A stretch of DNA of 31,615 nt from positions 1 through 31,615 of the IMG/VR virus record IMGVR_UViG_3300021405_000041; one strand, 5' to 3'. Position 1 is the stretch's first letter; each line of letters starts with the position of its first letter. Positions 1,643-24,357 of this stretch are shown here, piece after piece. Below the pieces are notes generated by a model. That model saw only the letters and a program-made list of their open reading frames with translations, did no database searches and was not told the origin of the DNA. Position numbers and translations under genes: made by a program. The DNA comes from a virus.

Positions 1643-1932
1643 TGGTTACGGACAAAGAAATTGCAGATGCCGAGGCCGTTCGTAACGCGGCGCGCACTGT
1701 CTACAAAGAAGCCGAATACAAGGTGGAGCGCCTGAAAGAAACGCAAGCGTGCGAGAAATACAAGGTTGGCATCGGCATGATTGTTGTGGACAAAAACGGC
1801 CGTAAGGGCGTCGTCGTCCGCATCAATCCCTCGTATGGCGGGAAACCATGGGTCTACGCGAAGCAGATTAAAAAAGATGGTTCGCGCGGTGAGCGCGAGC
1901 TTTCAATGTACTCTGATTGGATGGTTGTCTAA
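1642..1932 (+). CDS. hypothetical small phage protein
   Basis: This 96-aa protein has an N-terminal charged helix (residues about 3-36, rich in Ala, Glu and Lys) followed by a compact beta-rich part: VGIGMIVVDKNGRKGVVVRI, then KPWVYAKQIKKDG. The ATG at 1642 shares bases with the preceding TGA (TGATG). A GTG one codon earlier is the alternative start. The C-terminal part looks like a small SH3-like or KOW-like barrel, which is a guess from the pattern only. Confidence 0.6.
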   Translation: MVTDKEIADAEAVRNAARTVYKEAEYKVERLKETQACEKYKVGIGMIVVDKNGRKGVVVRINPSYGGKPWVYAKQIKKDGSRGERELSMYSDWMVV

Positions 1933-9603: not shown

Positions 9604-9666
9604 TTTGTTTGGTTAGCTTGGCTACCTTGGCTCTCACACCACCGAGAGGGTTTTACGGCCATAGAG
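9604..9666 (+). repeat. dispersed repeat copy A
   Basis: This plus-strand copy matches the reverse complement of copy C exactly for 24 nt (9608-9631 against 22074-22097). It matches again at ACGGCCATAGAG (9655-9666), with the middle diverged. The middle here contains CTCTC, an 8-nt loop, GAGAG and then GGGTTTT. That could form a weak hairpin terminator on the plus strand. Confidence 0.6.
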
Positions 9667-9674
9667 TCTTGCAA

Positions 9675-9791
9675 TCACCCGAGATATATCTTCGCGCCAA
9701 TGAGAACCACCCACATTCCAACGCCGACAATTGCGATGGCGCGTATTGTTTGTTCAATTGGTCCACACTCCTTCCACGGCGTCATCTTCAT
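9675..9791 (-). CDS. 38-aa single-span membrane peptide
   Basis: This ORF starts at the ATG at the inner edge of repeat copy B and ends in TGA at 9677-9675. It encodes MKMTPWKECGPIEQTIRAIA, then IVGVGMWVVLIGAKIYLG, i.e. one membrane helix preceded by a short charged segment. The Shine-Dalgarno is weak (GAG within TTCGAGAAA). It lies among lysis genes, so a small holin or lysis regulator is possible, but coding status rests on composition and position only. Confidence 0.4.
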   Translation of the reverse strand: MKMTPWKECGPIEQTIRAIAIVGVGMWVVLIGAKIYLG

Positions 9792-9861
9792 TTTCTCGAA
9801 CCCCAATGGCCGTAAGAATCTCACAGAACTTTTGAGAGACTAGGTAGCCAAGCTAACAAAC
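9787..9861 (-). repeat. dispersed repeat copy B (72-bp type)
   Basis: Over 71 aligned bases this copy is identical to copy C at 65. Both lie a few bases beyond the stop codon of a late minus-strand gene and both end at an ATG (GTTCGAGAAAATGAA). The shared block runs from GTTAGCTTGGCTACC through TTCTGTGAGATTCTTACGGC to that ATG, reading on the minus strand. Confidence 0.8.
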
Positions 9862-9865
9862 AAAT

Positions 9866-10183
9866 TCAGTACTGATCCGCCGCCGATATCGCCGGACCTT
9901 TGCCCAAAATGCCGATGATGATCTGAACGTCCGAATCGAGTGTCGGCAATTCAGCGAGCGCTTGCGCGATCAGTGGCTTTGACTTTTCATAAAGCGCTTG
10001 GCTCTGAGCAAGCAACGGCTTCGCATTTTCGTAGAGCACATCCCACTGTTGAAATAGCGGCGCGTTCTCCCGCAGTGTATGCACCAACGCGGCGATGCCC
10101 GGCGCGTCGGCTTCGAGCTTGGCGATTTGCGCGTCGCTCAAACCTTCCGCGTGGCCTGCCATTTCCAGGAGGAAGTTGCTCAT
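9866..10183 (-). CDS. hypothetical helical lysis-region protein
   Basis: This 105-aa soluble helical protein begins MSNFLLEMAGHAEGLSDAQI and contains two similar segments (VLYENAKPLLAQSQALYEKS and KPLIAQALAELPTL) that suggest a short internal repeat. The ATG overlaps the stop of the upstream membrane protein by one base (TAATG), so the two are probably made together. It could be a regulator of the neighbouring holin candidate; that is positional inference. Confidence 0.65.
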   Translation of the reverse strand: MSNFLLEMAGHAEGLSDAQIAKLEADAPGIAALVHTLRENAPLFQQWDVLYENAKPLLAQSQALYEKSKPLIAQALAELPTLDSDVQIIIGILGKGPAISAADQY

Positions 10184-10518
10184 TACGCGGCCTTTTGCGC
10201 GACAGCTTGCGCCGCTGCAATCGTACCCACCACCTTCTCGCTCGGCGTAGCCGCTGCAATGGGCGGCTCAGTCAAAATGGCCTTGACCTGCGGCAACGAT
10301 GCCGCCGCGTCGATACGCGCTTGGCTACCCATACCCATGCCACTGATGGTGGTATTAACAGCAGAGCCGATAAACGCGATGATGCCGCACCACGCAGCAA
10401 CTATCGGAATCCAAGCGGGCGGAATGGCGTTCGTAAGAACGAGTGTTCCCTGACTTATACCGATTGCGATGGTGACGATAATGCTGATCGTGAATCGCCA
10501 TTTCGGGTCGATGCTCAT
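10183..10518 (-). CDS. putative holin (two-span membrane protein)
   Basis: This 111-aa protein follows a strong Shine-Dalgarno (GCAGGAGGAATAAC). Two membrane helices (about residues 8-30, FTISIIVTIAIGISQGTLVL, and 35-56, WIPIVAAWCGIIAFIGSAVN) are followed by an Ala-rich soluble tail. Its position directly after the endolysin with an ATGA overlap, its small size and the two spans are the usual profile of class II phage holins, which open the inner membrane at lysis. Confidence 0.65.
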   Translation of the reverse strand: MSIDPKWRFTISIIVTIAIGISQGTLVLTNAIPPAWIPIVAAWCGIIAFIGSAVNTTISGMGMGSQARIDAAASLPQVKAILTEPPIAAATPSEKVVGTIAAAQAVAQKAA

Positions 10519-11099
10519 GTTATTCCTCCTGCCGGAATCATCTTGACCGCGTCGTTACCAATTTCAACCGAACGTCGAATCCAGTCTTTGCCGAAATACT
10601 GAAAGCCGCGCAGCGCCTTGTAGTAAGCCTCACGCTGCGCAGTGAATGCGCTGATAACCGCGTAGGAGTTTGTGACACCCTTCACCGCCGCCTCAGTCTG
10701 TGGCCCCCATACACGATCCGCCGTGATGCCGAGCGCACGTTGCAAGATCAGAGTGGCCGCACCGGGCCCGGCATTCACCGCCTCATCGAAAAACTGCAAG
10801 TCCAACCCTGGCGGCAGTTTCGGGCATTCCGGAAGCCAATAGGAATTGTAATAGATGTCCGCGCCCTCATCGCGGCTGATCTTGCTCACATCTTGCAGCG
10901 GCAGACCTTTGCCTTTGCGATAGGCGTCATACTCGCGCTGGATAATGCCGCACATCGTCTCGCCGCCCGGATCGTGAGCATCGTTTGAGAAGTTACGGCG
11001 ATTGCTCCAATCGTTTGGGAGAGGACATTCCTGAATCAAAGTGAAAGGCCAGCACGCGGCGAAGCGCGGATCGGCAAGTGCTGTTGCTGCGTCGGTCAT
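10515..11099 (-). CDS. endolysin, GH108-like muramidase with peptidoglycan-binding part
   Basis: This 194-aa protein shows the glycoside hydrolase family 108 layout. FTLIQE has the candidate catalytic Glu at residue 24, followed by NDAHDPGGETMCGI, then EGADIYYNSYW and FFDEAVNAGPGAA. LQRALGITADRVWGPQTEAA then matches the attached peptidoglycan-binding part. It would cleave the glycan strands of host peptidoglycan at lysis. Relative to the usual E-G-G form, about a dozen residues separate Glu24 from the DPGG motif. No signal peptide is seen, so export needs a holin. ATG 11099 overlaps the preceding stop (ATGA). Confidence 0.85.
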   Translation of the reverse strand: MTDAATALADPRFAACWPFTLIQECPLPNDWSNRRNFSNDAHDPGGETMCGIIQREYDAYRKGKGLPLQDVSKISRDEGADIYYNSYWLPECPKLPPGLDLQFFDEAVNAGPGAATLILQRALGITADRVWGPQTEAAVKGVTNSYAVISAFTAQREAYYKALRGFQYFGKDWIRRSVEIGNDAVKMIPAGGIT

Positions 11100-11278
11100 G
11101 GCTTCAAAAACCACACATAATAACCGTGAGCCACCATCACGCTCAAAACCCCACTTGCGACAACTCCGAGCCCGAGAATGACGCGCTGAAACCCCGTCAA
11201 CCTTTCCTCAAGCGGATCGTTGACCGAGTCCGGTCTTTCAACCTGCACAACGGGAGCGTGACCAAAATGCCTGCTCAC
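11096..11278 (-). CDS. small single-span membrane protein before the endolysin
   Basis: This 60-aa protein overlaps its neighbours on both sides by ATGA. An N-terminal polar half (RPDSVNDPLEERLTGFQ) precedes one membrane helix (RVILGLGVVASGVLSVMVAH) and a short aromatic tail. It lies directly upstream of the endolysin, so it is a second holin or antiholin candidate. I recognise no named family. Confidence 0.55.
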   Translation of the reverse strand: MSRHFGHAPVVQVERPDSVNDPLEERLTGFQRVILGLGVVASGVLSVMVAHGYYVWFLKP

Positions 11279-11502
11279 GAATTCAATCCCTTTATCTGCT
11301 CAGGAGTCGCCTGGGGAATCCCACCATGCGCATCGGAAATCAGAATAGCACCGCGTTTCGTCAAGTGCATCCCCGCATTGAGCGCCGTCCACATGCCGAT
11401 GGAGAGAATCTGTTGCGTCGGCTTCCCCTTATTCACGATCACGCAAACACCTTCGACGCCTTCCATGAAGCCAACCCAGACATCTTCGACGGAAAGGACC
11501 AT
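11275..11502 (-). CDS. hypothetical small phage protein
   Basis: I chose ATG 11502 (75 aa) because CAGGA lies 8 nt upstream. The longer frame to 11547 adds a basic N-terminus without a ribosome binding site. The sequence MVLSVEDVWVGFMEGVEGVC and KRGAILISDAHGG suggests a small alpha/beta fold. It is coupled to the membrane protein behind it by ATGA. The function is unknown. Confidence 0.55.
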   Translation of the reverse strand: MVLSVEDVWVGFMEGVEGVCVIVNKGKPTQQILSIGMWTALNAGMHLTKRGAILISDAHGGIPQATPEQIKGLNS

Positions 11503-11556
11503 TGCGTAATTCCTGATTCTATCACGCTTGACCCTGACTCCGCGCACTACATCACG

Positions 11557-11805
11557 TCAAGACTTCGGCCCTTGTTTGCGCAGATTATTGACGATTCCCA
11601 CAAGTTGATCGCCAGCCATCGGAGCACCGTGACGCCCACGACCAAAGAACTGATCCGCGTCGATTTCAGTTGAACGCCTGCGGCCTTTGCGCGGATTGTC
11701 TTTCGGTCCCCAGTAGCAGACAATTTCGATGAGCGATGGCCATGTCTCATCGGCTTCGATGGATTTGACGCGCGCGAGGTCGCCTGAGAGCTCTGGTCTA
11801 GGCAT
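11557..11805 (-). CDS. hypothetical small phage protein
   Basis: The start ATG 11805 has AAAGGA 6 nt upstream and overlaps the end of the large ejection-type gene by 8 bp. The frame extending to 11871 reads through that gene and is rejected. The 82-aa product has an N-terminal segment WPSLIEIVCYWGPKDNPRKG and a basic C-terminus ending LRKQGPKS. I recognise no domain. Confidence 0.55.
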   Translation of the reverse strand: MPRPELSGDLARVKSIEADETWPSLIEIVCYWGPKDNPRKGRRRSTEIDADQFFGRGRHGAPMAGDQLVGIVNNLRKQGPKS

Positions 11806-14521
11806 GATGGTCCTTTGCGGTTTTGTTTGACTCATTCTCTCGCAGCGCAGCCTTCGACTCAGCGCGGTCACCCAATCGCTTCAACAAAACAGCTTCATTG
11901 TGCGGATAAGGTTTCTTGTACAAGTCCGGCGGCGGACGCTTGGGATGTTCGTGTTCGATATGAGAAAGCAACCCGTCCATCACTTCCTCGTAGTTGTCCC
12001 AATTCAATCCGCGAGCCTTTACCATCGCACGCTCTGCCGCCGTACCGTCTTCGGCGTGCGCTTTCTCGTAGGACTTTCCCGCGCGCATCGCCTTGTGTTC
12101 TTCACGCTCGTGTTCGGCAAGAAACTCCGATGGGTCGATTGACTCGTAGCCTTTTCCATTCGCGCGCTTCACTGCGATTCGCGTGGGCACGCGGCGATCA
12201 ATGTAAACGGTTTTATCGTCGTCGGACGATCCAGCGAGGTAGGGCACGTCGTATTTGCGATTGACGCTTGATTTATCGGCGGATTTGGATTCTACTTGTC
12301 CTTTATGCCCCGATTCACCCCCCACCTTGCCGCCCGTGGCGCGCTGTTGCTGTACGCGACCGCCTGTTTTCTGTGCCTCTACTGGCCCTGGAACGGGCTG
12401 CTGCTGGTTCTGGGCGCCCGCGCCGCCTGTAAGCTGCAAAACCGAGGGAGGCAACGTGGTGGCCTCCCTAGCCCCAGCCATGGCAGCGGCCCGCGACCCA
12501 GTTTCCCGCAAAGCCTGACCAATCCGAGGATTTGAGGAAGCCGCCGACAACCCACGCGCGATATCCGCCGGGTTGCTGGTCGTAAGTAGTTCCGCCACTC
12601 GTTTTGCTGTATTACGATCCACATAGCCCAAGGCCGAACGGAACCCAGCCGTAATCGCTTCCGGCGCGATGCGCCGCGCTCCCATGCCCCCTAGGAACCC
12701 CTCACCAGCACCACGCCAATCGCCCGTGAGATAGCCCCCAGCGGCACCTCCAGCCAAACCGGCCTCGATCATCTGTCGCGCCGTCGTGGAATTGCCAAGA
12801 GCTTTGCGGACCGCGTCGAACACCCGTTCACGGTCCACAAAGGCCCCTAGGCGGTCTGCCGCAGGCTGTCCCAATACCGCCGCTATCCGTTGTCTTTCCT
12901 GCGGTGAATTGTAAATTCGATTTGTCACGTCCTGATTGTCGGAAACACCTTCCGCCTTGCGTGCCATGGCGTCGGCATAGGACTCCTGAAAAATCTCCCG
13001 CTCCGCAGGCTTCATCTGAGCCATCGTGCGTTGCAAATCACGCACGTCACCCTTGAAATTCAACGCCTGCTGTCCAGCTTCGATAGCGTTGTTGCCACCA
13101 AAATACCGCGCGGCAATACCACGAGCATCGGCAAATTCCGGAACCTGCTTGTCAAGCTCCGCTTTGAGTTGTTGTTCCAAACCACCGTAAAGAGCAGCAT
13201 CCGTGTTATTCCCGGCACGGCGCGCTTGTGCTGCCATGCCAGACAGATTACGTGATGCATAATCCCAAAATTGTAAATTCGGATAAGGCAACATTCCCTT
13301 ACCCGGCAAGAACTTTAACTGTCCATCGGGTGTCACATTGACGGGCGGATTCATCGCACCGAATCCATCCTTCACCTGAAAATCCTGCCAGCGATTCACA
13401 GCGCCGCGTATCGCACCCGCGACGCTTGGCGCCGACGACAGCCTTTCTAATTCTGGCGACCAAATAGGGCGGTCGCCAGCTTGATAGGCCGCACCGTAAG
13501 CACCACCGCGTTCAAGATCATATTCCGCTTCAAGTTGAGCTTTGGTCTTAGCAGTATCGGCACCGCCGGAAACCAAGCCACGGATCGTCGAACCAGCCCG
13601 ATCATTCTGTTCGGCAAACCGATCGGCAACCGTACTCTGAATTAGGGCGCGACCTTCCGGCGATGTATTCGCCGCGGAGCGCAGTAAAGCACGCGTCGTT
13701 TCGCCGCCCAAGTCCGCAGCCATCACAGGCTGGCCCGCAGCGTGCGCAGCCACATATTCTCCAGGCGTCAAGCCCAAGGTTTGACCGGCCGCCACCTGCG
13801 GAGCGTCGGTCGTCAAGGCACCGTAAACCCGGCGGGCCGCTTCCTTCGCCGGGTCGATCATCCCGCGAACTGCGGAAGCGATAGGACGCCCATAAAGGTC
13901 GTAACCGAACTGGAGTCCCTTTCCAATCGCGCTGCCGCCTAACTCACCCCCGGCACCACCTAAGCCACCCTCGATACCACCAGTCACCGCGCCAATAGCC
14001 GCTCCCGGCAATCCACCCTCTCGCGTACCTTCCGCAGCGCCCGTGACGGCACCATAGCCGGCACCAATTTTAGCACCCTGGACAAGACGCGCCGGCAACC
14101 CAGCCACCTGCCCTATAGGCAAAGCTGCCATGGTCGCACCAGCGCCGCCTAGTTCACCCGCGCCGTAATAGTAAGGGTGTTGCACCTGCGCCGCGTCGCG
14201 CTGCCTTTTTGCGTCGTCGCGAGCCGAATGATAAATGCCAGTCAAGCCGCCAGACTTGTTGATTTGGTCTTCGTAATCTTGCACCTGATCCGGCGGCACA
14301 TAGCCGCGCGCTTCCGCAGCGCCAACAGCCGCCATAAGGCCGGTTATCTCGTCAGACCATCCTGCACTGGCGCCAGACTTTAAGCCCTCCCAAGCCGCGC
14401 GAGCACCTCCGACCTGCGGAGTAGTAGGAGTTGCATTTGCAGGATCAAAAGGCGGCGGCGACTCTGCACCAACAGGTGTCGCCGCTGTCGGATCAAAGGG
14501 AGGTGGTGCATCGTCTGCCAT
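11798..14521 (-). CDS. large internal virion (ejection-type) protein with C-terminal HExxE domain
   Basis: I chose ATG 14521, with GGG six bases upstream, two bases after the previous stop. A TTG at 14527 is the alternative. The 907-aa protein starts with two PPPFDP repeats. It has Gly/Ala-rich stretches at about residues 110-210 that resemble glycine-zipper membrane segments, then a long helical middle. The last 150 residues form a separate domain opening YDVPYLAG, then KTVYIDR, then a HERREE-like motif (H804-E805-R-E-E808-H809) and a conserved AHAEDG/AERA helix. I know this domain from Hyphomicrobiales phages as a presumed metal-binding peptidase-like unit. Such large proteins are often ejected with phage DNA. 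Exact functions are inferred. Confidence 0.7.
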   Translation of the reverse strand: MADDAPPPFDPTAATPVGAESPPPFDPANATPTTPQVGGARAAWEGLKSGASAGWSDEITGLMAAVGAAEARGYVPPDQVQDYEDQINKSGGLTGIYHSARDDAKRQRDAAQVQHPYYYGAGELGGAGATMAALPIGQVAGLPARLVQGAKIGAGYGAVTGAAEGTREGGLPGAAIGAVTGGIEGGLGGAGGELGGSAIGKGLQFGYDLYGRPIASAVRGMIDPAKEAARRVYGALTTDAPQVAAGQTLGLTPGEYVAAHAAGQPVMAADLGGETTRALLRSAANTSPEGRALIQSTVADRFAEQNDRAGSTIRGLVSGGADTAKTKAQLEAEYDLERGGAYGAAYQAGDRPIWSPELERLSSAPSVAGAIRGAVNRWQDFQVKDGFGAMNPPVNVTPDGQLKFLPGKGMLPYPNLQFWDYASRNLSGMAAQARRAGNNTDAALYGGLEQQLKAELDKQVPEFADARGIAARYFGGNNAIEAGQQALNFKGDVRDLQRTMAQMKPAEREIFQESYADAMARKAEGVSDNQDVTNRIYNSPQERQRIAAVLGQPAADRLGAFVDRERVFDAVRKALGNSTTARQMIEAGLAGGAAGGYLTGDWRGAGEGFLGGMGARRIAPEAITAGFRSALGYVDRNTAKRVAELLTTSNPADIARGLSAASSNPRIGQALRETGSRAAAMAGAREATTLPPSVLQLTGGAGAQNQQQPVPGPVEAQKTGGRVQQQRATGGKVGGESGHKGQVESKSADKSSVNRKYDVPYLAGSSDDDKTVYIDRRVPTRIAVKRANGKGYESIDPSEFLAEHEREEHKAMRAGKSYEKAHAEDGTAAERAMVKARGLNWDNYEEVMDGLLSHIEHEHPKRPPPDLYKKPYPHNEAVLLKRLGDRAESKAALRENESNKTAKDHHA
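11821..11880 (-). repeat. 60-bp patch shared with 26642-26701, copy 1
   Basis: Reading on the minus strand, this patch begins AGCGATTGGGTGACCGCGCT and ends GAGAATGAGTCAAAC. The same two flanks occur at 26642-26701 with a diverged middle. Here it encodes the C-terminal residues LGDRAESKAALRENESNKT of the large virion protein. Confidence 0.55.
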
Positions 14522-14523
14522 CG

Positions 14524-17500
14524 TCAACCCTTTTGTGGGCTCGGGTCATTGTACGAACCGTCAGGTTGCAACTTGTAAATCCATCCGTTAGATCGCATAG
14601 CCGGCGGCTTCGTGGTGGCTTGCGGCACGCCCGCATTTTGACCACCGGGAGCACCCGCAGTCGGCATCGTAGTCGCCGCAGGCGCGCCCTTACCACTGAT
14701 TCGCGATAAAATAGCTTGCCTTACAATCTCTGGCGCAATCTTGGCCGCTTCCATTTCCTGCCCCATTTGCTCCAAAGCGGCCTGAATACCTTCATGCCCG
14801 GTCGCTTTTGCAAGAAGATCATGAGCGGACTGTTGAGCAAACACCGAGTTGGTTCCCGTTCGCGACATCGCTTGAGAGTAAGCCGTCATCGCACCTTGGA
14901 GCGCGGTATTATAACGAATATAACGCGGGTCGCTCGTGCCGGACTGAACCATCTGTTCAAGTTTATTGATCGGGACCCAGTCACTACGCGGCAACGCCGC
15001 GGAAGCCTGTAGCGCAAGCGGGAATGTTTGTTTTGCTTCTTCAACCGCAGCATCAACGTTAGCCGAACGTTTCGCCGCCGTCGAAGCTGCCGCTGATTGA
15101 CTCGTAAAGTTTGCTTTTGCCGCCGCCAAGTCCGCCCCGCTCCATCCCTCAGTTGCAGCGCGTTCCGCCAGACGGTTTTGAATACGCGTTAGATTCTGAC
15201 CGGTCTGCGCCCCGCGACCGAGATTTTGCAATGCGGACGGATCACCCGCGTGGATACGATCAACCGCCAGATTCACCGCGGCGTCAGTCATAAGGCCACT
15301 GTCGTTTGTAGCTATGGTCTCGCCAGTTTTTGGATTAACCAACTCTTGACCAGGAGTCATCACTTTCGGAGCATTCAATTGACGCTCCAATTCGTCTTGT
15401 TGATGTTGTAGTGTCGCCTTCTGATACGGCGTCATTTGCGTTTGAGTGAATTTCTGTGCGCTCTCTTCCAACTGATTGCGTTTCGTTTCTTGCGCAATCC
15501 GATCCTGCTCAGCCTTCGCCGCCTGATTCAACTGCTTCACTTTCAGGTCAACATCCTGATCTTGTTTCTTCAACCCGCTATAGGTCTGCAAGCCTTGCAA
15601 GCCGCCCTCTCCGATAGCCGTTCCCAGGAAAGGCGACCGCGAAGCCATCATGCCCAAGCCCGCCGCCATGAGCGACTGATAAAAATTAGGAGACAGCCCG
15701 AGCAATCCTTTCTCCTGCGAACGAGATTCCGCAGGCGCACTGGTGACCGAGTCCGGTGGCACAACAGGCGCAGCGTTGCGTGACCCATCATCCGAAAAAG
15801 CAAGTGCAGACGATCCGAGCCCAGCCTGCGGCGCAGACGTTCCTTGCGTAATTTCGGGAGGCAACGCATCGGCCAAACCGGGCCGTGATCGCGGCAGCGG
15901 AACATCGTCACCTTGCGGCGCAGGAGCATAAGGAGAACTTTGCCCGTAAGTCTGAAACTTCAAAATATTCTCAAGAGGATTCGCTTCACCTGCACTGTTA
16001 TTATACAACCCCGCAGGAACAGACGGCTGGACAAATCGATCAGACGGAAAATTAACGACATCGCCATCATCGTCGGGAGACCCACCAGATGCAAACCGTC
16101 GCCGCGGCATGAACGACGCCATTCCAAGCCCGGCGCGCACGGGCGCACCACCACGTTTCAACTGAATCCTGTTCGTCTTCGGAAAAACCAATCCACCATG
16201 GGCATAAAGTGCGGTATCGCTTGACGTAGGCGGCATCACAGCCGAATCCATACTCCCGAAAGCATCCAGCGGCAGACTATTATTGCCAACACCAGAAACC
16301 TGCGGAGCAATATTCATCGGCGCTCCAGGCTGCGCAGGCTTATTCGGAAACGCTTTCTTCATCGCATCAGAAAATCCAGCAGCGTTCTGCGCCATCTGTT
16401 GCGGCGTTTGGACTTGCTGTTCTGGAATCTTTGGAGGAGACGGTAAATCCTTACCATGCGGCATCTGTCCGGGCGTCAACCATGGATTGCCCGGAAGGCC
16501 GGGAGAAAACCCGAACCCCGACGGCACACCACCATCGGCTAAACCTTGAACGCGCCCGCCAAAATAACGACGTGCAGCGCTCTTGGTCGCCTCATCGTAA
16601 TCGACGTGTTTGAATCCGTTCACTTCATGCACGGCATCGGGATTAACCTTCTCGACATCCTGCGCCAACAAACCGATACGAGTCTCAGGATCGCCTTTGT
16701 AGTTGAATCTATAAATATGCTGACCATCATTGAGCGAACCGATCTTTCTGATATTCTCTTTCGCGCGCTTGTCGGATAGTGCTGCTAATCCGGCAATGCC
16801 TTGCGAACCGCCCGCTTGTCCTGCGGCACCGAGCCCAGCAATACCGAGTCCCAAATACTGCGCCAACGGATTCGGCGCTGGCCCCGTCGTGCTTGACGTT
16901 CCACCTTCCTGCGATCCCACACCCGTCAACAGCGGCAGTTCCCAACTCAACATGCTTTCCGGCATGAACTGCTGCTGCATGAACTGCTGATAAGCCGCCG
17001 TGTCTTGCGCCTGCTGTGTTTGTTGTTCAAGCGTGCCGGCTCCAACTTGCGCGTTGGCGCCAGTGAGCGCGGCATTCTCCAGTCCCTGACCCGTACTGGC
17101 GATACCGTAAGCGGCCTGTTCGGGATTCTGTTGGAACTGCTGACCGGCCGTTTGCAGAGCTTGCGTGTAACCCTGATTTTCCAGCCCAGCAATGACCGGC
17201 GCTTCTTGCGCCGATTGTTGTCCGGCAAGAACGGATTGTGCAACGGCAGTCCGATCGCCACCCAATGCACCTTGCGCGGCAGCATTCCCTAAAACTTGCT
17301 GCTGTTGAATCGCGTTCTGATTGTTCATTTGTTGTTCGGTCGCCTGAACAACATCCTGCGTATAGGGCGATTGGTATTGTTGAATCTGTTGCTGCGTCAA
17401 CGGCTGCGCAGCGTTCTCCTGCAAGCCAGCGGCCTCCTGCATATAAGGAACACCAGCCAGCGCGTACTGGTCGATGTTACCAATGCCGCTCTGCTGTTGT

Positions 17501-17643
17501 TGATTTACACCCGCAGTCAACTCGCCGCCGTATGGCGTGTAAGGCGTCGCGGCGACGTTTTGTAACTGCCCAATCGCCTGCTGATACTGCGGGAGTGCAG
17601 TCGGCGATTGCGAAGTTGTCGTCGTGTTCGAGCCCTTGGACAT
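14524..17643 (-). CDS. large virion protein with internal S74 autoprotease/chaperone motif
   Basis: This 1039-aa protein opens with about 230 residues rich in Gln and Ala, then a Gly-rich linker. At residues 290-350 it carries LSDKRAKENIRKIGSL, YRFNYK, TRIGLLAQDVEKVNP and GFKHVDYDEATK. This is the order of the peptidase S74 intramolecular chaperone, including the Ser/Lys pair five residues apart (S290, K295). In well-studied cases (bacteriophage endosialidase tailspikes) this domain is at the C-terminus and cuts itself off. Here about 700 residues follow, with Pro/Gly-rich linkers, a GLLGLSPNFYQSLMAAGLGM hydrophobic stretch and helical segments. It probably belongs to the ejection or tail machinery. 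Confidence 0.75.
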   Translation of the reverse strand: MSKGSNTTTTSQSPTALPQYQQAIGQLQNVAATPYTPYGGELTAGVNQQQQSGIGNIDQYALAGVPYMQEAAGLQENAAQPLTQQQIQQYQSPYTQDVVQATEQQMNNQNAIQQQQVLGNAAAQGALGGDRTAVAQSVLAGQQSAQEAPVIAGLENQGYTQALQTAGQQFQQNPEQAAYGIASTGQGLENAALTGANAQVGAGTLEQQTQQAQDTAAYQQFMQQQFMPESMLSWELPLLTGVGSQEGGTSSTTGPAPNPLAQYLGLGIAGLGAAGQAGGSQGIAGLAALSDKRAKENIRKIGSLNDGQHIYRFNYKGDPETRIGLLAQDVEKVNPDAVHEVNGFKHVDYDEATKSAARRYFGGRVQGLADGGVPSGFGFSPGLPGNPWLTPGQMPHGKDLPSPPKIPEQQVQTPQQMAQNAAGFSDAMKKAFPNKPAQPGAPMNIAPQVSGVGNNSLPLDAFGSMDSAVMPPTSSDTALYAHGGLVFPKTNRIQLKRGGAPVRAGLGMASFMPRRRFASGGSPDDDGDVVNFPSDRFVQPSVPAGLYNNSAGEANPLENILKFQTYGQSSPYAPAPQGDDVPLPRSRPGLADALPPEITQGTSAPQAGLGSSALAFSDDGSRNAAPVVPPDSVTSAPAESRSQEKGLLGLSPNFYQSLMAAGLGMMASRSPFLGTAIGEGGLQGLQTYSGLKKQDQDVDLKVKQLNQAAKAEQDRIAQETKRNQLEESAQKFTQTQMTPYQKATLQHQQDELERQLNAPKVMTPGQELVNPKTGETIATNDSGLMTDAAVNLAVDRIHAGDPSALQNLGRGAQTGQNLTRIQNRLAERAATEGWSGADLAAAKANFTSQSAAASTAAKRSANVDAAVEEAKQTFPLALQASAALPRSDWVPINKLEQMVQSGTSDPRYIRYNTALQGAMTAYSQAMSRTGTNSVFAQQSAHDLLAKATGHEGIQAALEQMGQEMEAAKIAPEIVRQAILSRISGKGAPAATTMPTAGAPGGQNAGVPQATTKPPAMRSNGWIYKLQPDGSYNDPSPQKG

Positions 17644-17644
17644 T

Positions 17645-18253
17645 TTAAGCCCTACCCGCCATCTGCAACGGCATCATCAAGGTCGTGGCAACCGCTGTTG
17701 CCAAGTGAGCCGCTAGGCCGTTCTCTTTTTTCGAGTCACGTCCACGCGTGTGGACCTTCCACAGATCGAAATTCTGCGCGCGCTCGAAATATTCCGGGGG
17801 CGCTCCGCTGACAAAAAATGCGCCGGACGGCATCCCAAAATGGCGGCGGTACTTTCTCACCTTTGCTTCCATTCGGCTTGAAGTGCACACGCCAATCACC
17901 AAAGGAATGCCCAAGGACTTTTGACAATGATCAGCGTACTTCAATAATATGTCAGCGTAATTCGTCCTGCGGAATTCTGGCGACACAAAATTCCACAACT
18001 CTTCCAAGTGAAGTTGCCAAGTATAGTAATAGCGGGTGATCAATAGCCCCAACATCGCGCGAATGTCCCCTGCCGGCCCTTTTATAAGACCAATCACACC
18101 TTCCTTCTTTTGAACTGCGCGATTGAAAGTATCGACAACGCATCCTTCATCAAGTTCAAAGAGTCCGTTTTCTTGGTGCATGATTTTGAACAGCCGCATG
18201 AATTCCGGAAGATCAGAGAGAGTCGCACCGATGACTATGGGATTCTCACTCAT
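17645..18253 (-). CDS. GNAT-family N-acetyltransferase
   Basis: I chose ATG 18253 because it overlaps the upstream stop as ATGA. The frame extending to 18319 lies inside that gene. The 202-aa protein has the GNAT order: an N-terminal strand and helix (IVIGATLSDLPEFMRLFKIM), central strands GVIGLIKGPAGDIRAMLGLL, then helix RTNYADILLKYADHCQKSLG and a late strand IPLVIGVCTSS. GNAT enzymes transfer an acetyl group from acetyl-CoA to an amine. Copies in phage structural operons are common, and their substrate is unknown. The canonical Q/RxxGxG loop is not obvious. Confidence 0.7.
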   Translation of the reverse strand: MSENPIVIGATLSDLPEFMRLFKIMHQENGLFELDEGCVVDTFNRAVQKKEGVIGLIKGPAGDIRAMLGLLITRYYYTWQLHLEELWNFVSPEFRRTNYADILLKYADHCQKSLGIPLVIGVCTSSRMEAKVRKYRRHFGMPSGAFFVSGAPPEYFERAQNFDLWKVHTRGRDSKKENGLAAHLATAVATTLMMPLQMAGRA

Positions 18254-19281
18254 GATTTTACCGGCGGCTTTAGACCCTTGAGCGTGCGGATATGGTCCTT
18301 TCGGAGTGACATTACCCATTGGTCCAGAATCTTGTGGCCTCTCTTGATATCACCATCGCCGATTCGCGCTACCACGGAAGGGTCTATTATAAATTCGCCG
18401 CCTGCGGTCACAACATCAACCGGAGTCCCACTTCCTTCGCCCCGAGCCCCACCTTTGTCGCCGGGGATTCCCATCATCCGCGGCGGCTTCGGAGCGCCAG
18501 TACCGTGGCCCATTGGTCCGGCACCAAACATATTCGTTGCGATCTTCATCCCCGCCATCGTGTTCGATTGACCGAGGTGTGAAATCGTCTCTGCGGGCAA
18601 AACATAAGAGCCCGATGGCACTGCCATGTTATGCCGATCGGTGCGTCCAGGCACTGCCGACATGATAGGACCAGTGTGAGTCAAGCCGCGCGCCTCTTGC
18701 TTTGCGAACCACGGCATCTGCCCCAACCCCGCCATCCCACCGGACGCCATCCCCGCAGGATTTGCCTGCATCATCCCATTGACCATCTGCATATTATTCT
18801 GCGGCGCGATTCCCGCAGTAGGTTGCGCACCAACAAAAGAATTTCCCGACGCAACTTGATTCACTGCGGGGTTAGCGCTGCCGAGTCCCGTGTTTGCTGG
18901 CGCTGAATTGAACCCTGCGGGATTCTGCGTTGGCGTCGGAGTGGGCGCTGTTGCGCCGGCTGGCGTAGCGACGGGCGCGGCAGCGAACGAGGCTGGCGTT
19001 GGTGACGCTGAATTCATGCCGGCATTGCTTGCGGGGCCTGCAACTTGGTTCGATCCGCTTTGCAATGCGGAAATTACGGCCGTCACAGGATCAGTCGCGC
19101 CGCCTGCGTCGTAGCCTTTGACTTTGCCGCCGCGCTCGCGCTTGGCTCTATTTTTGATGCTGTACGCAATCGCGAGGGCTTGGCTTTTGTCCTTCACATG
19201 CGGTGATACGCCGCGTTCTTTCATCAACGTCGAAATGTTTGCTTTGAAAGCCGAAGGCGATGACGAATGTTGCAGCGGCAT
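18250..19281 (-). CDS. phage structural protein, unknown (343 aa)
   Basis: AGGA lies 8 nt before ATG 19281. The N-terminus (residues 9-50) carries the pattern SPHVKDKSQALAIAYSIKNR, common in phage proteins with a Lys/Arg-rich, Gly-Gly tail. Then comes a Pro/Ala/Thr linker, the segment VPSGSYVLPAETISHLGQSN, and a C-terminal domain with VVTAGGEFIIDPSVVARIGD and RGHKILDQWVMSLRKDHI. I know this architecture from tail-region genes of alphaproteobacterial phages. The function is unknown. It overlaps the acetyltransferase gene by four bases. Confidence 0.7.
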   Translation of the reverse strand: MPLQHSSSPSAFKANISTLMKERGVSPHVKDKSQALAIAYSIKNRAKRERGGKVKGYDAGGATDPVTAVISALQSGSNQVAGPASNAGMNSASPTPASFAAAPVATPAGATAPTPTPTQNPAGFNSAPANTGLGSANPAVNQVASGNSFVGAQPTAGIAPQNNMQMVNGMMQANPAGMASGGMAGLGQMPWFAKQEARGLTHTGPIMSAVPGRTDRHNMAVPSGSYVLPAETISHLGQSNTMAGMKIATNMFGAGPMGHGTGAPKPPRMMGIPGDKGGARGEGSGTPVDVVTAGGEFIIDPSVVARIGDGDIKRGHKILDQWVMSLRKDHIRTLKGLKPPVKS

Positions 19282-19290
19282 TGTTTGTTC

Positions 19291-19644
19291 CTAAGAGGAA
19301 GCCGGCAGCGAAGTCCACGCCGACGCGCCATTGGTATTGACATAAACCCGCGTCGTCGCCGATGAAGCATCAAGTCGCAGATAGAGCGAACTGGTAGCCG
19401 CCGCGAGCGTCGGCGTTCCGGTCCCGCCGAACACCCCGAAATTCGGCGTCGAGAAAAACACAAATCCCGCGCCCGCTGTCCCTCCCGATGGCGGCGCTGT
19501 CGTCCCGAGTGCCCGGATCGAACCGCTATAACTTACTAGCGTCCCAAACACCTGCGGCAGCGCGTTGCTCAAAGTCTGTGCGATGTTGCCGAGGTTGGTC
19601 ACCCCGTTTTTTAGATTTGAGACTAGATCGTCGATTGAGGCCAT
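19291..19644 (-). CDS. small fibre-like protein with shared C-terminal module
   Basis: This 117-aa protein has an N-terminal helix (IDDLVSNLKNGVTNLGNIAQ) and a C-terminal 55-residue module with GTGTPTLAAATSSLYLRLDA and RVYVNTNGASAWTSL. The same module closes the 540-aa spike protein at 26689-28311. Such modules are typical of fibre, collar or neck-whisker proteins. A helical trimerisation stem with a receptor-side cap is a reasonable model. Confidence 0.65.
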   Translation of the reverse strand: MASIDDLVSNLKNGVTNLGNIAQTLSNALPQVFGTLVSYSGSIRALGTTAPPSGGTAGAGFVFFSTPNFGVFGGTGTPTLAAATSSLYLRLDASSATTRVYVNTNGASAWTSLPASS

Positions 19645-19654
19645 GGGTTAGGCT

Positions 19655-19942
19655 TTAAGATTTTGGGTCACGAGAGGGCGTACCGTTTGCATCGCCGGAC
19701 TCGGTCAACTTACCATCGTTTTTAGCGTCTTCGGGACCTATATCTCTGACTAACCCTCCAACCCCAATCTCCCCGCCAGCCATTTCGACAGAATCAGTGA
19801 CCGGCACCCCCGCAGTTTCGGCAGTCCACCCTTTTTTGGGAGCGTCCCCAGGGAACCGCTGAATCCTGTGATCAGCGGGGATGGCCGGGTTAAGTTTAGG
19901 CGCTTGTGGCACGGGACCGTTAGGGTCGTATTCGTTCGATAA
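19655..19942 (-). pseudogene. 3' remnant of a phage gene interrupted by the insertion
   Basis: On the minus strand an open frame encodes SNEYDPNGPVPQAPKLNPAI, continues through DHRIQRFPGDAPKKGW and ends GTPSRDPKS. It stops just before the fibre-like gene. No ATG or good Shine-Dalgarno precedes this coding-like part. Extending the frame upstream runs antisense to the inserted gene at 19954. It therefore looks like the C-terminal 95 codons of a late gene that lost its 5' end. The alternative is a small gene using a rare start. It contains one arm of a 28-bp inverted repeat. Confidence 0.45.
19729..19756 (+). repeat. left arm of 28-bp inverted repeat (26/28)
   Basis: The arm reads CTTCGGGACCTATATCTCTG and continues ACTAACCC. 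It matches the reverse complement of 20645-20672 at 26 of 28 positions. It lies within the coding-like remnant gene, where the minus strand reads GLVRDIGPE. Confidence 0.75.
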
Positions 19943-19953
19943 CGGAGATTGAA

Positions 19954-20196
19954 ATGGGAATTTCCTTTGATGATTCTCCAAATGAACCACTATTCGCCAG
20001 ATTACCGAAGTCAGAACCATCGCTAGACGGCGTAGTGGCGACTGTGAGCGTAGACGTTGACGGGCTTCCTCGTTCCACTGTGCTCGTTCGGCTTGTGTTG
20101 GAACCCGAGGACGCCCGCGAACTGGCGCAAACCCTCCAGATAAACGCGAATGTCGTGGATTTGTGGCGGAAAAATCGAGTTGAGAATCAAGCATGA
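19954..20196 (+). CDS. passenger-type small ORF 1 (80 aa)
   Basis: CGGAG lies 6-7 nt before ATG 19954. The product is acidic with strands (GVVATVSVDVDG, TVLVRLVLEPEDA) followed by a helix (RELAQTLQINANVVDLWRK). The strand-then-helix ending resembles the ORF at 21778-22017 (VEFLVPAHAMKALIEDLTEA), so the two may be distant relatives. It is coupled to the next ORF by ATGA. Its function is unknown. Confidence 0.55.
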   Translation: MGISFDDSPNEPLFARLPKSEPSLDGVVATVSVDVDGLPRSTVLVRLVLEPEDARELAQTLQINANVVDLWRKNRVENQA

Positions 20197-20447
20197 CCAT
20201 CACACCCAAACTCACCACGCTGCCCCAAATCTCGGAAGCCAACTACGAAGCCGTCAGGCGTGTCCTCAAACGCAGTCTCCCGGCCACCCACCGGGAATGG
20301 CTCGATCTCCGCGCGCAGTGGACTGCGGACTATCCCAACCACGTCTTCGTGGATGTAGACCCGCAACAGTTCGCCAGGTTTTTTGGGACGAGCAGGCGCG
20401 GAGACGACATCCAAACCCTCTTCGACTTTGTGTGGGTAAAGCCCTAG
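20193..20447 (+). CDS. passenger-type small ORF 2 (84 aa, possibly cut short by TAG)
   Basis: It starts inside the stop of ORF 1. The product has a helix-rich first part (ISEANYEAVRRVLKRSLPAT, HREWLDLRAQW) and ends TLFDFVWVKP at a TAG. The same frame stays open for a further 39 codons after this stop, with coding-like third-position GC. The original protein may therefore have been about 124 aa. No family is recognised. Confidence 0.5.
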   Translation: MTITPKLTTLPQISEANYEAVRRVLKRSLPATHREWLDLRAQWTADYPNHVFVDVDPQQFARFFGTSRRGDDIQTLFDFVWVKP

Positions 20448-20567
20448 GGCGCAGCACCATTCCGGTTGAACCTTCGCCCCAAGCCGGATGCCTATGCGAA
20501 CGTTTTCCGCCAGAGCGGCAATTTCCCCATCGGGCAAAACAAAATCGGCGACTTGACTGCCGGCTAA
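20448..20567 (+). other. in-frame coding-like extension after an amber stop
   Basis: Directly after the TAG of the 84-aa ORF the frame reads PFRLNLRPKPDAYANVFRQS, then GNFPIGQNKIGDLTAG, and stops at TAA 20565-20567. About 70 percent of third positions are G or C by my count. No good independent start or ribosome binding site lies at its head. The remaining bases to 20644 show no gene. Confidence 0.4.
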
Positions 20568-20644
20568 ATGTTTTTGGGCCAGAAGCCCGTTTTCACAGAC
20601 TAACCCCCCCAAGCGACTCTGCGGACTCACCTTTTGGCGCTTTT

Positions 20645-20672
20645 GGGTTAGATAGAGATATAGGTCCCGAAG
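20645..20672 (+). repeat. right arm of 28-bp inverted repeat, candidate IS left end
   Basis: The arm reads GGGTTAGATAGAGATATAGG and continues TCCCGAAG. It lies 85 bp before the transposase start and just upstream of its promoter, which is where an IS left terminal repeat would be expected. The partner arm at 19729-19756 is in the opposite orientation but on the wrong side to enclose the transposase. Confidence 0.7.
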
Positions 20673-20675
20673 GGC

Positions 20676-20704
20676 TTGACAGACGCCAATTCTAGGCCCA
20701 TTAT
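20676..20704 (+). promoter_or_regulatory. sigma70-like promoter of the transposase
   Basis: TTGACA at 20676-20681, a 17-bp spacer and CATTAT at 20699-20704 (4 of 6 to consensus) form a plausible promoter. AGGGAG follows at 20718-20723 and the transposase ATG at 20730. The TTG sometimes read as a start codon here is the first half of the -35 box. Confidence 0.55.
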
Positions 20705-20729
20705 GAACCCACAATTCAGGGAGCCGAAG

Positions 20730-21617
20730 ATGCAACATTTTGAAAGCCTCATTGACCTTTTCCGGGCATTTCCGAACGAGGATGCCTGCGTTAAACACCT
20801 TCGGGCAACCCGCTGGCACAACGGCGAATATTGCCCGCACTGCGGCCACGATAAGGTTTACCCACTTTCCAAGCGCCGTCTTTTCAAGTGCGCCCAGTGC
20901 CGCATTAACTTCTCTATCAGAGTCGGAACGATTTTTGAAGACTCCAAATTGCCCTTGCAAAAGTGGTTCGCTGCGATTTGGCTTATCACCAATCACCCCA
21001 AGGGCATCGCCTCTACCACGCTCGCCAAGGATTTGAAGGTCACGCAAAAAACCGCATGGTTTATCCTGCACCGGCTGCGCCACGCTTCGCGGATCAAGAC
21101 TTTCGACAAGCCGCTGTCCGGCATTGTCGAGATTGACCAGACTTTCGTGAAGGGTGGCAAGCCCAACAAGGCGCGGAAGGACGGCCACGTCGGCGTTATC
21201 GGCGCAGCCGAGCGCAAAGGCCACGTGGTTGCTCGCGTGGTTCCGACCGGGCTTGGCTGGTCTGAGGCCCAAAAGTTTATCCGCGACGTTGTGGCGCCGG
21301 ATGCACAGGGTTTGATGACGGATGGCGCCCACGTATTTCACGGCATCAGCGATTATCCGCAGCACGAAATGATTAACCACCGCAAGGAAGGTCACAAGCG
21401 GGGCGCTGTCCACACCCAAACGATTGAAAGCGTATGGGCGCAGTTGAAGCGCCAAATCGTCGGCATTCATCACTGGGTCTCGCCGAAACATTTGCAAAAC
21501 TACGTCAACGAAATGGCGTGGCGCATGTCGCGCCGTGATCTGACCGCGACGGATCGGATGAACTCGTTGTTTGTTCACGTCGAAGGCAAACTCACATACA
21601 AGGCGCTGATCGCATGA
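20730..21617 (+). CDS. IS1595-family transposase
   Basis: I chose ATG 20730 (295 aa) because AGGGAG lies six bases upstream; the frame continues back to 20676. The N-terminal zinc ribbon CPHC (35-38) and CAQC (54-57) sits behind the typical RW-x-x-G-x-x-CP opening. A helix-turn-helix region (STTLAKDLKVTQKTAWFILH) follows. The DDE-type core has EIDQTF (D136), MTDGAH (D198) and HTQTIESVWAQLKR (E233), then GIHHWVSPKHLQNYVNEMAW, a hallmark of the family. Length and motifs look complete, so the enzyme may be active. The family moves DNA by cut-and-paste-like transposition with short target duplications. Confidence 0.9.
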   Translation: MQHFESLIDLFRAFPNEDACVKHLRATRWHNGEYCPHCGHDKVYPLSKRRLFKCAQCRINFSIRVGTIFEDSKLPLQKWFAAIWLITNHPKGIASTTLAKDLKVTQKTAWFILHRLRHASRIKTFDKPLSGIVEIDQTFVKGGKPNKARKDGHVGVIGAAERKGHVVARVVPTGLGWSEAQKFIRDVVAPDAQGLMTDGAHVFHGISDYPQHEMINHRKEGHKRGAVHTQTIESVWAQLKRQIVGIHHWVSPKHLQNYVNEMAWRMSRRDLTATDRMNSLFVHVEGKLTYKALIA

Positions 21618-21781
21618 ACCCGAAAGGTGCAAAGCTAGAACCCAAACTGACAATCGCGTTGCCGTTTGTCGAAGCCCTGCAACGCTTTTGCGAATTGAAA
21701 ACCGTTCCCTCCGAGCTTCCACATCGGATTCGCAAGGCCGCAAAACGAAAGCGTCGAAAGTCGCTGCGTAAGCCATTATGA
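21614..21781 (+). CDS. passenger-type small basic ORF 3 (55 aa)
   Basis: It starts inside the transposase stop (ATGA) and ends inside the start of the next ORF (ATGA). The product begins MNPKGAKLEPKLTIALPFVE and ends with a very basic tail (RIRKAAKRKRRKSLRKPL), suggesting nucleic-acid contact. Coupling on both sides supports that it is translated. The family is unknown. Confidence 0.5.
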   Translation: MNPKGAKLEPKLTIALPFVEALQRFCELKTVPSELPHRIRKAAKRKRRKSLRKPL

Positions 21782-22017
21782 CCAGCAAACTCCACAGTTA
21801 CGAGTTCACATCTATACCGGAATCAGAACAACTTGGATTCCGCTTCCAACTACGCGACGAACAGCAATCGGTCGAGTTCTTAGTGCCCGCTCATGCGATG
21901 AAAGCCTTGATCGAGGATTTGACGGAGGCTCAACGTCGGTACAAACGCGCCAGGGACCAACATATTCGGAATCGGAAGAAACAGATTCGCGTCGTTGTGA
22001 AGGACGATGACGTTTAG
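21778..22017 (+). CDS. passenger-type small ORF 4 (79 aa)
   Basis: This 79-aa protein has strands LGFRFQLRDEQQSVEFLV followed by helices AHAMKALIEDLTEAQRRYKR and a basic tail. A minus-strand frame over the same bases (21812-22027) opens at the ATG of repeat copy C. I prefer the plus-strand reading because of the ATGA coupling and the protein-like pattern. Repeat copy C begins six bases after its stop. Confidence 0.5.
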   Translation: MTSKLHSYEFTSIPESEQLGFRFQLRDEQQSVEFLVPAHAMKALIEDLTEAQRRYKRARDQHIRNRKKQIRVVVKDDDV

Positions 22018-22022
22018 ATTTT

Positions 22023-22097
22023 TTCATTTTCTCGAACCTCTATGGCCGTAAGAATCTCACAGAACTGTTGAGGGCCAAGGTAGCCAAGCTAACCAAA
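22023..22097 (-). repeat. dispersed repeat copy C (72-bp type)
   Basis: It lies between the end of the inserted genes (22017) and the stop of the nozzle gene (22102). It is 65/71 identical to copy B in the same orientation. Its first 24 bases (22097-22074) match copy A exactly in inverted orientation. A CTCA/TGTGAG imperfect hairpin is possible in the middle. It may be the right end of the inserted element or a phage-specific intergenic sequence. Confidence 0.8.
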
Positions 22098-22101
22098 CCC
22101 T

Positions 22102-24357
22102 TCACCTTCTCCCCGAAGGCGCATACCTAAACCTGATTCTCCCAAGCCGCCAAAAACTCCCCTGATCCAACGACTGAATCTGTATAGCCATCTGCCGCCC
22201 CCTCATTCTCTGGTCGATTCTCTCTGTACCTTGAACCACAGTAAAAGGCCCAAACACCCGAGGCGTATCCCCAGGATAATCGACAAGGAAGAACGTAAAC
22301 AACAGACTAGCACTCCCCGTCCCCGGATATAAGCCCCATTTCATGTCGGGTATAACTTGGTCCACAACCGCGAAATCCTCGCCCTCCGCGATCATGAAGT
22401 ATCCCGTGTTGAACGAGGCATTCAAAGCCGAACCATTGGCGTCGGGCGTGGTTTCCTGCAAATAGATGAAGCCCCCGGCATCCGCTCCGATCGGCATCCC
22501 AAGTGCCGTCTGGTCCATCCAAGCCGTTCGATTGATCGACCCATAGTCCCACGGCGCATTGGGCTCCGTGATATTCATCTTGACGTAGGAATCGCATTCT
22601 CCCGTAGTCGAAGCTTTCGACGGAAACAACCATCCCGCCTCATTGAACGGCGTGTTCGGCATGGAGCGGACATTCTGCACAAAACTCGTATTCAAATTCT
22701 GGAACACAAAATCCCACACCGGACAGGGAAGAACATTCACCCCGCTCCCCGTGAAGGCGTAGAAGTTGTTGTTGCCCATCCAATAGACGTTGCCGCGCAA
22801 CTTCTGCACCGAATGCGAAGAGATAGCCCCAGCCCCTGCGCCAATCGTATTGAAGCCGAACACAAAAGGAGGACCCTGATAGTTCATCGCCCAGCAATCG
22901 AGGTCGGTCCAGATCAAATCCTGCTGCGCAACCGCCATGCCAGCCATGATCTTGGAGCCGATAGGAATTCTGAAACTGCCAGCTTGATTGGTCGCCAACA
23001 CCTGAAACTGCGTATAATCCCCAACCGTGGACCACTTCACCAGCATCGGGTCTTGCTCAATCCCGATGTTCTGGCTTTCCGTCGATCCCCAACAAATCAA
23101 AATCTGCTGCGAGTTTGAGACAAAGATTCCGCCGTTGAGCGGCGGCGCTGTTGGTACGAGTCCCGCATTGGAAAAACCTCCTGTAGGATCGAACTGATAA
23201 ACCCCACCTCCCATCGGACACGCCAAAAGAATCTCGCCCCAATTGTCCTGTGTCCAATCCGTCGCCGTGATCGGCGTTCCAACTTGAGACGTACCGCCCG
23301 ACGTTCCAAATCCATAAAGCCCGGCACCATAATTACCAAGTCCATAGCCTTGTCCCGCGAGCGTCGGACCCAAGTTGATGTAATAGAGAATCTGCGCAAG
23401 CCCGCCATTCATCAAAAACGAGCCAGTCGCCGTCGCTTGTGTGCTGACAATGATCTGAAAGTTATTCGCATCGACCACGTCAACGACCGTATGATTAGAC
23501 GAAATCGTTACGCCATTCGCCGTCGTAGAGACTGGAAACACAACCGTCGATCCGACCGACAGCCCATGCCCCACCAGAAGAACATTCACTACGGCCGAAT
23601 TGAGCGTCGTCGTAAAATAAGGAATGCTGCAAAACACGATGCTGTCGCCCGAACCTACACCGGACGCCGTGGCGTTGTTGGTCATCAACACCGTAGAAGC
23701 CGTGGAAGATGTGGCAATCGTATTGGGCGGAATAGCCGTCGTAGACGTAATATCGAAGACCGCCATGCCGCTGACCAGCCACGAGGGCGTTGCGGCAAAG
23801 TGTAGAGTGGGGTTTCCTGCGGCCGTCGTTGCATTGGTCGTGGTTGGATTCGCAGCCGTCACATTCGCGTTATTTGGTGCCGTGATCGTGTAAGACGTTG
23901 CATTTACAATAGTCTGAATCGGAAAGATTCCCGACAGCACCAAACCGCCGATGGACAAAGGGGTTTGGATATAGATCGAATCGAACGTGGTCACATTTGA
24001 GATATTAGGATCGACAATCGTGACAGTCGGAGAATTTCCGACCGTTGAAAGATTGGGCACCGTGTCGGACACCAATTGCTGCGGCGTGACGACATTCAAC
24101 GCGCCGTTGGTGATGATGGACAGTCCATTTGTTGCTCCAATCGACAGATGGTCGTTGTTTTGCAGATCGACCCATCCGTGCAGGTCTCTCGGTATGGTCG
24201 TTGTCGCGAAGGGATAATAAAGTTGCCATCCGCCGTATTTCTGGATCAGGGAATCCTTATAGCGAATCAATTGCGACTGACTGACACCCGCCTCATTAAG
24301 AGTCGGAGTCCGCTCAGTATTGACACCGGGGATGAGTTTGACTTCGCCGAACGGCAT
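22102..24357 (-). CDS. tail nozzle protein (P22 gp10 / T7 gp12-like)
   Basis: This 751-aa protein opens with GEVKLIPGVNTERTPTLNEA, then SQLIRYKDSLIQKYGGWQLY. I recognise this start from nozzle or 'packaged DNA stabilisation' proteins of short-tailed phages. Long beta-rich Thr/Asn/Val stretches follow, then ILICWGSTESQNIGIEQDPM and a C-terminal beta domain ending RIRFRYAPSGRR. Nozzle proteins form the lower tail tube that closes the DNA channel until ejection. ATG 24357 lies 6 nt after the upstream stop. It is the gene next to the insertion. Confidence 0.75.
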   Translation of the reverse strand: MPFGEVKLIPGVNTERTPTLNEAGVSQSQLIRYKDSLIQKYGGWQLYYPFATTTIPRDLHGWVDLQNNDHLSIGATNGLSIITNGALNVVTPQQLVSDTVPNLSTVGNSPTVTIVDPNISNVTTFDSIYIQTPLSIGGLVLSGIFPIQTIVNATSYTITAPNNANVTAANPTTTNATTAAGNPTLHFAATPSWLVSGMAVFDITSTTAIPPNTIATSSTASTVLMTNNATASGVGSGDSIVFCSIPYFTTTLNSAVVNVLLVGHGLSVGSTVVFPVSTTANGVTISSNHTVVDVVDANNFQIIVSTQATATGSFLMNGGLAQILYYINLGPTLAGQGYGLGNYGAGLYGFGTSGGTSQVGTPITATDWTQDNWGEILLACPMGGGVYQFDPTGGFSNAGLVPTAPPLNGGIFVSNSQQILICWGSTESQNIGIEQDPMLVKWSTVGDYTQFQVLATNQAGSFRIPIGSKIMAGMAVAQQDLIWTDLDCWAMNYQGPPFVFGFNTIGAGAGAISSHSVQKLRGNVYWMGNNNFYAFTGSGVNVLPCPVWDFVFQNLNTSFVQNVRSMPNTPFNEAGWLFPSKASTTGECDSYVKMNITEPNAPWDYGSINRTAWMDQTALGMPIGADAGGFIYLQETTPDANGSALNASFNTGYFMIAEGEDFAVVDQVIPDMKWGLYPGTGSASLLFTFFLVDYPGDTPRVFGPFTVVQGTERIDQRMRGRQMAIQIQSLDQGSFWRLGRIRFRYAPSGRR

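Follow-up and report, generated by a model that had tools for sequence, protein, structure and literature searches.

Inverted repeats bound single-gene cassettes at shared sites in one group of tailed phages

The repeat present in three copies in a 31,615-base stretch of phage DNA (hereafter the window) forms the ends of single-gene cassettes in one phage group; this assignment and the anatomy of the cassettes are well supported. Each cassette is made up of a 5' inverted end, with a leader, a ribosome-binding site and the ORF start, followed by one ORF and a 3' inverted end. We consider it probable, though well short of certain, that the resident inverted ends act as sockets for single-gene exchange, most likely by homologous recombination, and double as leader and trailer of the gene between them.

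The window, taken from IMG/VR, is identical throughout to G003:35604-67218 of a 67,252-base contig. Its late genes are on the minus strand and most early genes on the plus strand. The repeat copies are termed A, B and C. Copies B and C are 91% identical across 74 nt, whereas the arms of A are 97% complementary to those of C across 30 nt and 89% complementary to those of B across 28 nt. In a BLAST search within the window, C matched B with E=2.6e-25 and A with E=3.8e-13, so that the similarity of the three copies is far beyond chance. The first-pass annotation, made from the sequence alone, had described such a repeat with A inverted relative to B and C, and these values confirm it. The copies and their neighbours are as follows.

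8710-9522, minus strand: downstream co-directional late gene (270 aa), its start codon about 80 nt past copy A; from the ORF list and neighbour test
9604-9679, plus strand: copy A, a 3'-type inverted end with its outer edge at 9604, reading inward on the plus strand; nhmmer profile match, E 1.9e-18
9609-9635: sub-repeats of copy A, 9-nt units TTGGTTAGC/TTGGCTACC/TTGGCTCTC, then TTTTACGGCCATAGAG
9675-9791, minus strand: cargo ORF between A and B, 38 aa (MKMTPWKECGPIEQTIRAIAIVGVGMWVVLIGAKIYLG) with one hydrophobic stretch
9790-9865, minus strand: copy B, the 5'-type inverted end of the same cassette as A; nhmmer match
9866-10183, minus strand: upstream co-directional late gene (105 aa), stopping at the 5' end of the cassette; from the ORF list and neighbour test
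22026-22101, minus strand: copy C, a 5'-type inverted end without a partner, directly after the stop of a 751-aa virion gene
22102-24357, minus strand: gene of a virion structural protein (phrog_3287, 751 aa), upstream of copy C

Much as had been noted at first pass, minus-strand copies B and C each start directly past the stop of a late gene (9866-10183 and 22102-24357, respectively) and finish at an ATG, and A and B bound a 262-bp unit that holds the 38-aa ORF. The outer edge of B abuts the stop codon of the upstream gene, and its inner edge holds both the start codon and the ribosome-binding site for the cargo. No relative of the cargo ORF was found, tblastn of the contigs giving no match. 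The site of copy C is occupied by a complete cassette in another contig (G002, 19344-19720). The 12.4 kb noted earlier between A and C is correct as arithmetic but carries no meaning; we rejected A and C as a 12.4-kb recombination pair because A pairs with B, C being the 5' end at another cassette site.

Pattern scans of viral contigs, to which a relaxed last pattern added none, found the repeat in 16 related phage contigs, two of which duplicate viruses represented by others of the 16. All are metagenome contigs. An iterated profile yielded 65 copies in them. The 65 copies comprise 29 pairs, all of them convergent, and seven singles, with no direct or divergent pair. The carriers are one group of tailed phages, with contigs of up to about 67 kb. 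A pattern search of 84,980 bacterial and archaeal species genomes (GTDB) gave no copy, none was found in GenBank phages or plasmids, and 33 relatives that have a homologous virion protein and were not collected through the repeat contain none either.

The ends are about 76 nt long, and the pairs span 146-1177 bp. The outer part of an end contains three 9-nt sub-repeats (TTGGTTAGC TTGGCTACC TTGGCYCTC), and the inner part contains TTACGGCCATAGAG. Every filled pair encloses one main ORF of 38 to 365 aa, whose start in nearly all cassettes lies either at the 5' end or just within it. The ribosome-binding site is part of the 5' end, which usually adjoins the upstream gene's stop codon: a co-directional upstream ORF stops near it in 24 of 28 cassettes, mostly at a distance of -3 to +13 nt, whereas the opposite-direction control gave 16 of 28, with distances that were scattered or with the stop inside the end itself. 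In all cassettes tested, a co-directional downstream ORF starts no more than 150 nt away. About half of the cargo ORFs terminate inside the 3' end and have the tail ..MAVK.. (SMAVK.., e.g. SMAVKPKQNNRQPR). The cargo ORF is read in the direction of its neighbours and often takes its stop codon from the 3' inverted end. The cargo families assigned with Pfam are DUF5131, HMUDK_hel, HTH_3 and DUF551, and the other cargo is of unknown family; the MazG-like cargo was assigned by eye only and has no Pfam match. In contig G012, two ends stand back to back as a cargo-less pair. Among the explanations offered at first pass, ends of a small element is supported by this anatomy, A and B delimiting a single-gene cassette that has many relatives.

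The repeats could be purely regulatory leaders and trailers that act as promoters or in RNA processing or translation and have no part in exchange, with sites and genes varying by other means. The 5' copies hold a ribosome-binding site and the start region; in G006 and G011, a resident gene that in G007 is preceded by a short plain leader has a solo 5' copy as its leader; class-2 copies, described below, are mostly solo and intergenic; and the start-associated sequences of mycobacteriophages provide a precedent (PMC3203893). However, scans of the window copies for sigma-70 promoters and terminators gave nothing relevant, phage-specific promoters being outside the reach of the scan, and the sole terminator-like site (21989-22013, plus strand) lies outside copy C. 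No curated Rfam family matched in the window, and alifold scores near those of shuffled columns (z -0.3 to -2.0) give no convincing conserved RNA fold. The published 13-nt SAS repeat (GGGATAGGAGCCC) is absent from the aligned 5' ends; these do finish at or near the start codon, but, unlike in SAS, an inverted partner follows the gene. The inverted 3' copy, the invariably convergent pairs and the unrelated genes bounded exactly by the ends at one site are not explained by regulation alone, which we think improbable as a complete account. The earlier suggestion of a phage-wide regulatory leader holds insofar as 5' copies lead cargo ORFs and solo copies lead a resident gene; promoters or known RNAs were not detected.

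Searches with flanking sequences placed cassettes of different phages at homologous sites, and across phages these sites carry unrelated cargo (DUF5131, HMUDK_hel, HTH, MazG-like and orphan ORFs). At site G, class-1 cassettes, i.e. those with the ends described above, are present in eight phages with four kinds of cargo (DUF5131, HMUDK_hel, MazG-like and an orphan ORF), and a ninth contig, G014, has a class-2 pair. Between G003 and G004 the flanks are 89-90% identical, the 5' ends 88% and the 3' ends 83%, and the cargo is without similarity; six more pairs likewise show unrelated cargo. Accessory gene content between the repeats differs at conserved places, in keeping with the shuffling proposed for the PeSL modules discussed below.

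The 5' ends track the site rather than the cargo. Compared within the same phage pairs, those that share a site but not a cargo are closer than those at separate sites in 27 of 35 cases (p=3e-5), and a permutation test of the site effect gave p=2e-4. In the former test, the G002 cassette at 55127-55477 was used in its corrected 5'/3' orientation, which had been reversed in an earlier comparison. At site G, the likeness of 5' ends is 0.90 for different cargo versus 0.84 for equal cargo, and that of 3' ends is 0.82 for equal cargo versus 0.74 for different cargo. The 3' ends follow the site weakly (paired test, p=0.07); they are more alike for the same cargo and therefore move in part together with it. 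G014 and G002 hold homologous cargo at two separate sites, where the 5' ends are dissimilar (0.47). G009 encodes, without ends, a DUF5131 protein 90% identical to that of the G007 cassette, the DNA homology of the two extending from the start codon up to the beginning of the 3' end.

As far as sequence comparison goes, gene exchange between resident ends appears to fit these data better than movement of whole elements. We propose that the ends would remain at particular intergenic sites, the sockets, while the gene between them is swapped between phages. The likeliest means would be homologous or relaxed recombination of a resident with an incoming cassette through the ~76-nt ends and the flanks. 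As the ends are inverted and not direct, recombination within one cassette would not delete the gene. Exchange may run via flanking homology as well as via the ends; that the ends take part, which enzyme acts on them and how ends first came to a site are matters of inference. For the recombination sites suggested at first pass, cargo exchange between homologous sites would be the form that agrees with the data; a 12.4-kb inversion between A and C is not.

A second repeat, class 2, is 62 nt long (TTTGGGTCACGAGAG..CCGGACTCGGTCAAC), and the contigs hold about 70 copies of it. Most stand alone between genes, but some form convergent pairs that enclose an ORF. With the pattern used, the GTDB genome collection gave no match. 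Three copies are in the window.

11212-11271, minus strand: solo class-2 copy, after a late-gene stop
15735-15792, minus strand: solo class-2 copy
19658-19714, plus strand: class-2 copy at the left edge of an insertion that ends at copy C; nhmmer E 1.7e-13

At site A, the gene enclosed by a class-2 pair in G007 is a homologue of the class-1 cargo in G010. Other convergent class-2 pairs enclose the ORF of a DHHA1-domain protein in G011 and that of its homologue in G009. The phages may even possess a dedicated system of fixed paired inverted sockets, in which a putative phage or host protein would bind the 9-nt sub-repeats, single genes would be picked up exactly between their start and stop codons and traded among phages, and at least two independent end classes (1 and 2) would share one design; we regard this as possible but rather doubtful.

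Alternatively, the cassettes might be non-autonomous DNA transposons, MITE-like and with a passenger gene, mobilized by a transposase in trans such as the IS1595 transposase of the window.

20703-21617, plus strand: gene of an IS1595-family transposase (NCBIfam NF033547, 172.8 bits at a cut-off of 75; PF12762)

The 29 convergent pairs of ~76 nt are terminal inverted repeats as in DNA transposons and MITEs, their outer 9-nt sub-repeats resemble protein-binding sites, and there are several copies per genome. Family searches found IS1595 transposase genes in five of 22 contigs, one of them 0.4 kb from copy C. Genes related to the window transposase were seen in G006, G007, G008 (two) and G012. 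On the other hand, no transposase gene found is flanked by paired ends, and no autonomous relative that combines these ends with a transposase was found; moreover, the gene is absent from G002, G009 and G011, which at 64-67 kb are near full length and have 2-9 ends each. Pfam and PHROG scans of the 77 G003 proteins listed no transposase, the true frame being masked by a longer overlapping frame. Transposition with target duplication was rejected, no direct repeat of at least 5 nt being present at the edges of any of 28 cassettes. The tracking of site rather than cargo by the 5' ends, the reuse of the same sites in many phages and the lack of copies in bacterial genomes and plasmids also speak against transposons, which we judge an unlikely explanation; the link to the nearby insertion proposed at first pass is unsupported in view of the unpaired transposases, the missing duplications and the near-full-length carriers of ends without the gene.

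The window transposase is probably an independent insertion. Its gene is in the late operon, on the opposite strand, within an insertion of about 2.4 kb (19658-22101) that is absent from G009 and is possibly the reason why C has no partner. A 79-aa ORF without family match (21778-22017, plus strand) lies between the transposase and copy C. The sequences at 19729-19767 and 20634-20672 form an inverted pair (CTTCGGGACCTATATCTCTNNCTAACCC), the single pair of its class, with nothing comparable elsewhere in the contigs fetched.

A site-specific recombinase might instead recognize the ends and swap or insert cassettes in an integron-like manner, and the window does encode a candidate.

366-1421, plus strand: tyrosine recombinase-like gene, whole in G002, G003, G009, G011 and G012

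Single-gene cassettes and a cargo-less pair invite this comparison. Yet G001, G006, G007, G008, G010 and G016 retain only the first and/or last codons of the gene, with about 90-97% DNA identity and other sequence between, and nevertheless have cassettes. The cassettes are dispersed and do not form the integron-type array with attI/attC sites next to a dedicated integrase, no serine recombinase was found in these phages, and the gene is more simply read as that of an ordinary prophage integrase; we consider this explanation very unlikely. The remnants at the first and last codons themselves resemble exchange at gene ends. Where a small gene has its 3' end (window 1606-1645), 36 nt (GCGGATGGAAAAGAGCAGCGAGAAGGTGGCGTGATG) recur in part at the end of the recombinase gene and are kept in most relatives, one or two times each.

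The carriers were not found to have a recombinase in common. If exchange between resident ends is homologous, the recombinase would be host RecA or an unrecognised one, since neither a RecT nor an Erf gene turned up in these phages. Lambda-type phage recombinases work on about 30 bp and at 78% identity (PMC3945230), and ends of 76 nt with ~80-88% identity would therefore suffice for comparable activity; no recombinase corresponding to the Lambda type was identified in these phages.

Several known systems resemble the cassettes in part. Integron cassettes are single-gene units in an array, each with an attC-like site, next to a linked integrase; the cassettes described here would similarly be exchanged as single-gene units, but they form no array, have no single attC-like site each, and most carriers are without a linked integrase. 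PeSLs are units of an early promoter and a stem-loop and are not known to be arranged as convergent pairs around one gene. The PeSL cassettes of T4-type phages (Arbiol et al. 2010, as described in PMC3950731) are repeated intergenic modules before genes, proposed for regulation and the shuffling of accessory genes, features they share with our cassettes; here, however, 76-nt inverted copies stand on both sides of a single gene, and no promoter was detected. The SAS and ESAS of Cluster K mycobacteriophages, a 13-nt repeat and 17-bp inverted repeats found upstream of the start only, are likewise conserved repeats directly before the start codons of a subset of genes and kept at particular genes, but have no second copy past the gene and no exchange of cargo at fixed sites (PMC3203893). 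MITEs and TIMEs are also small elements with inverted ends and without a transposase (PMC4133298), whereas for the cassettes neither target duplications nor an autonomous partner were found, their ends are tied to the site, and the ORF is bounded from start to stop. In Campylobacter group II phages, modules are bounded by repeat units of 72-86 bp, some of which enclose genes, but arrays there reach 18 units per arm and modules 28-55 kb (PMC4546147), compared with one copy on each side of one gene here. The cassettes are comparable to PeSL (PMC3950731) and SAS (PMC3203893), but their paired inverted design is distinct.

Single-gene mosaicism of phages with joints at gene boundaries is an old question, for which boundary or linker sequences have been proposed, although few clear cases have defined ends. 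In the phages described here one can name the ends, their sockets, a pair that lacks cargo, a gene with and without ends, and varied cargo per socket, and end-mediated exchange is therefore directly testable. The ends also provide a handle for locating accessory genes in this phage group.
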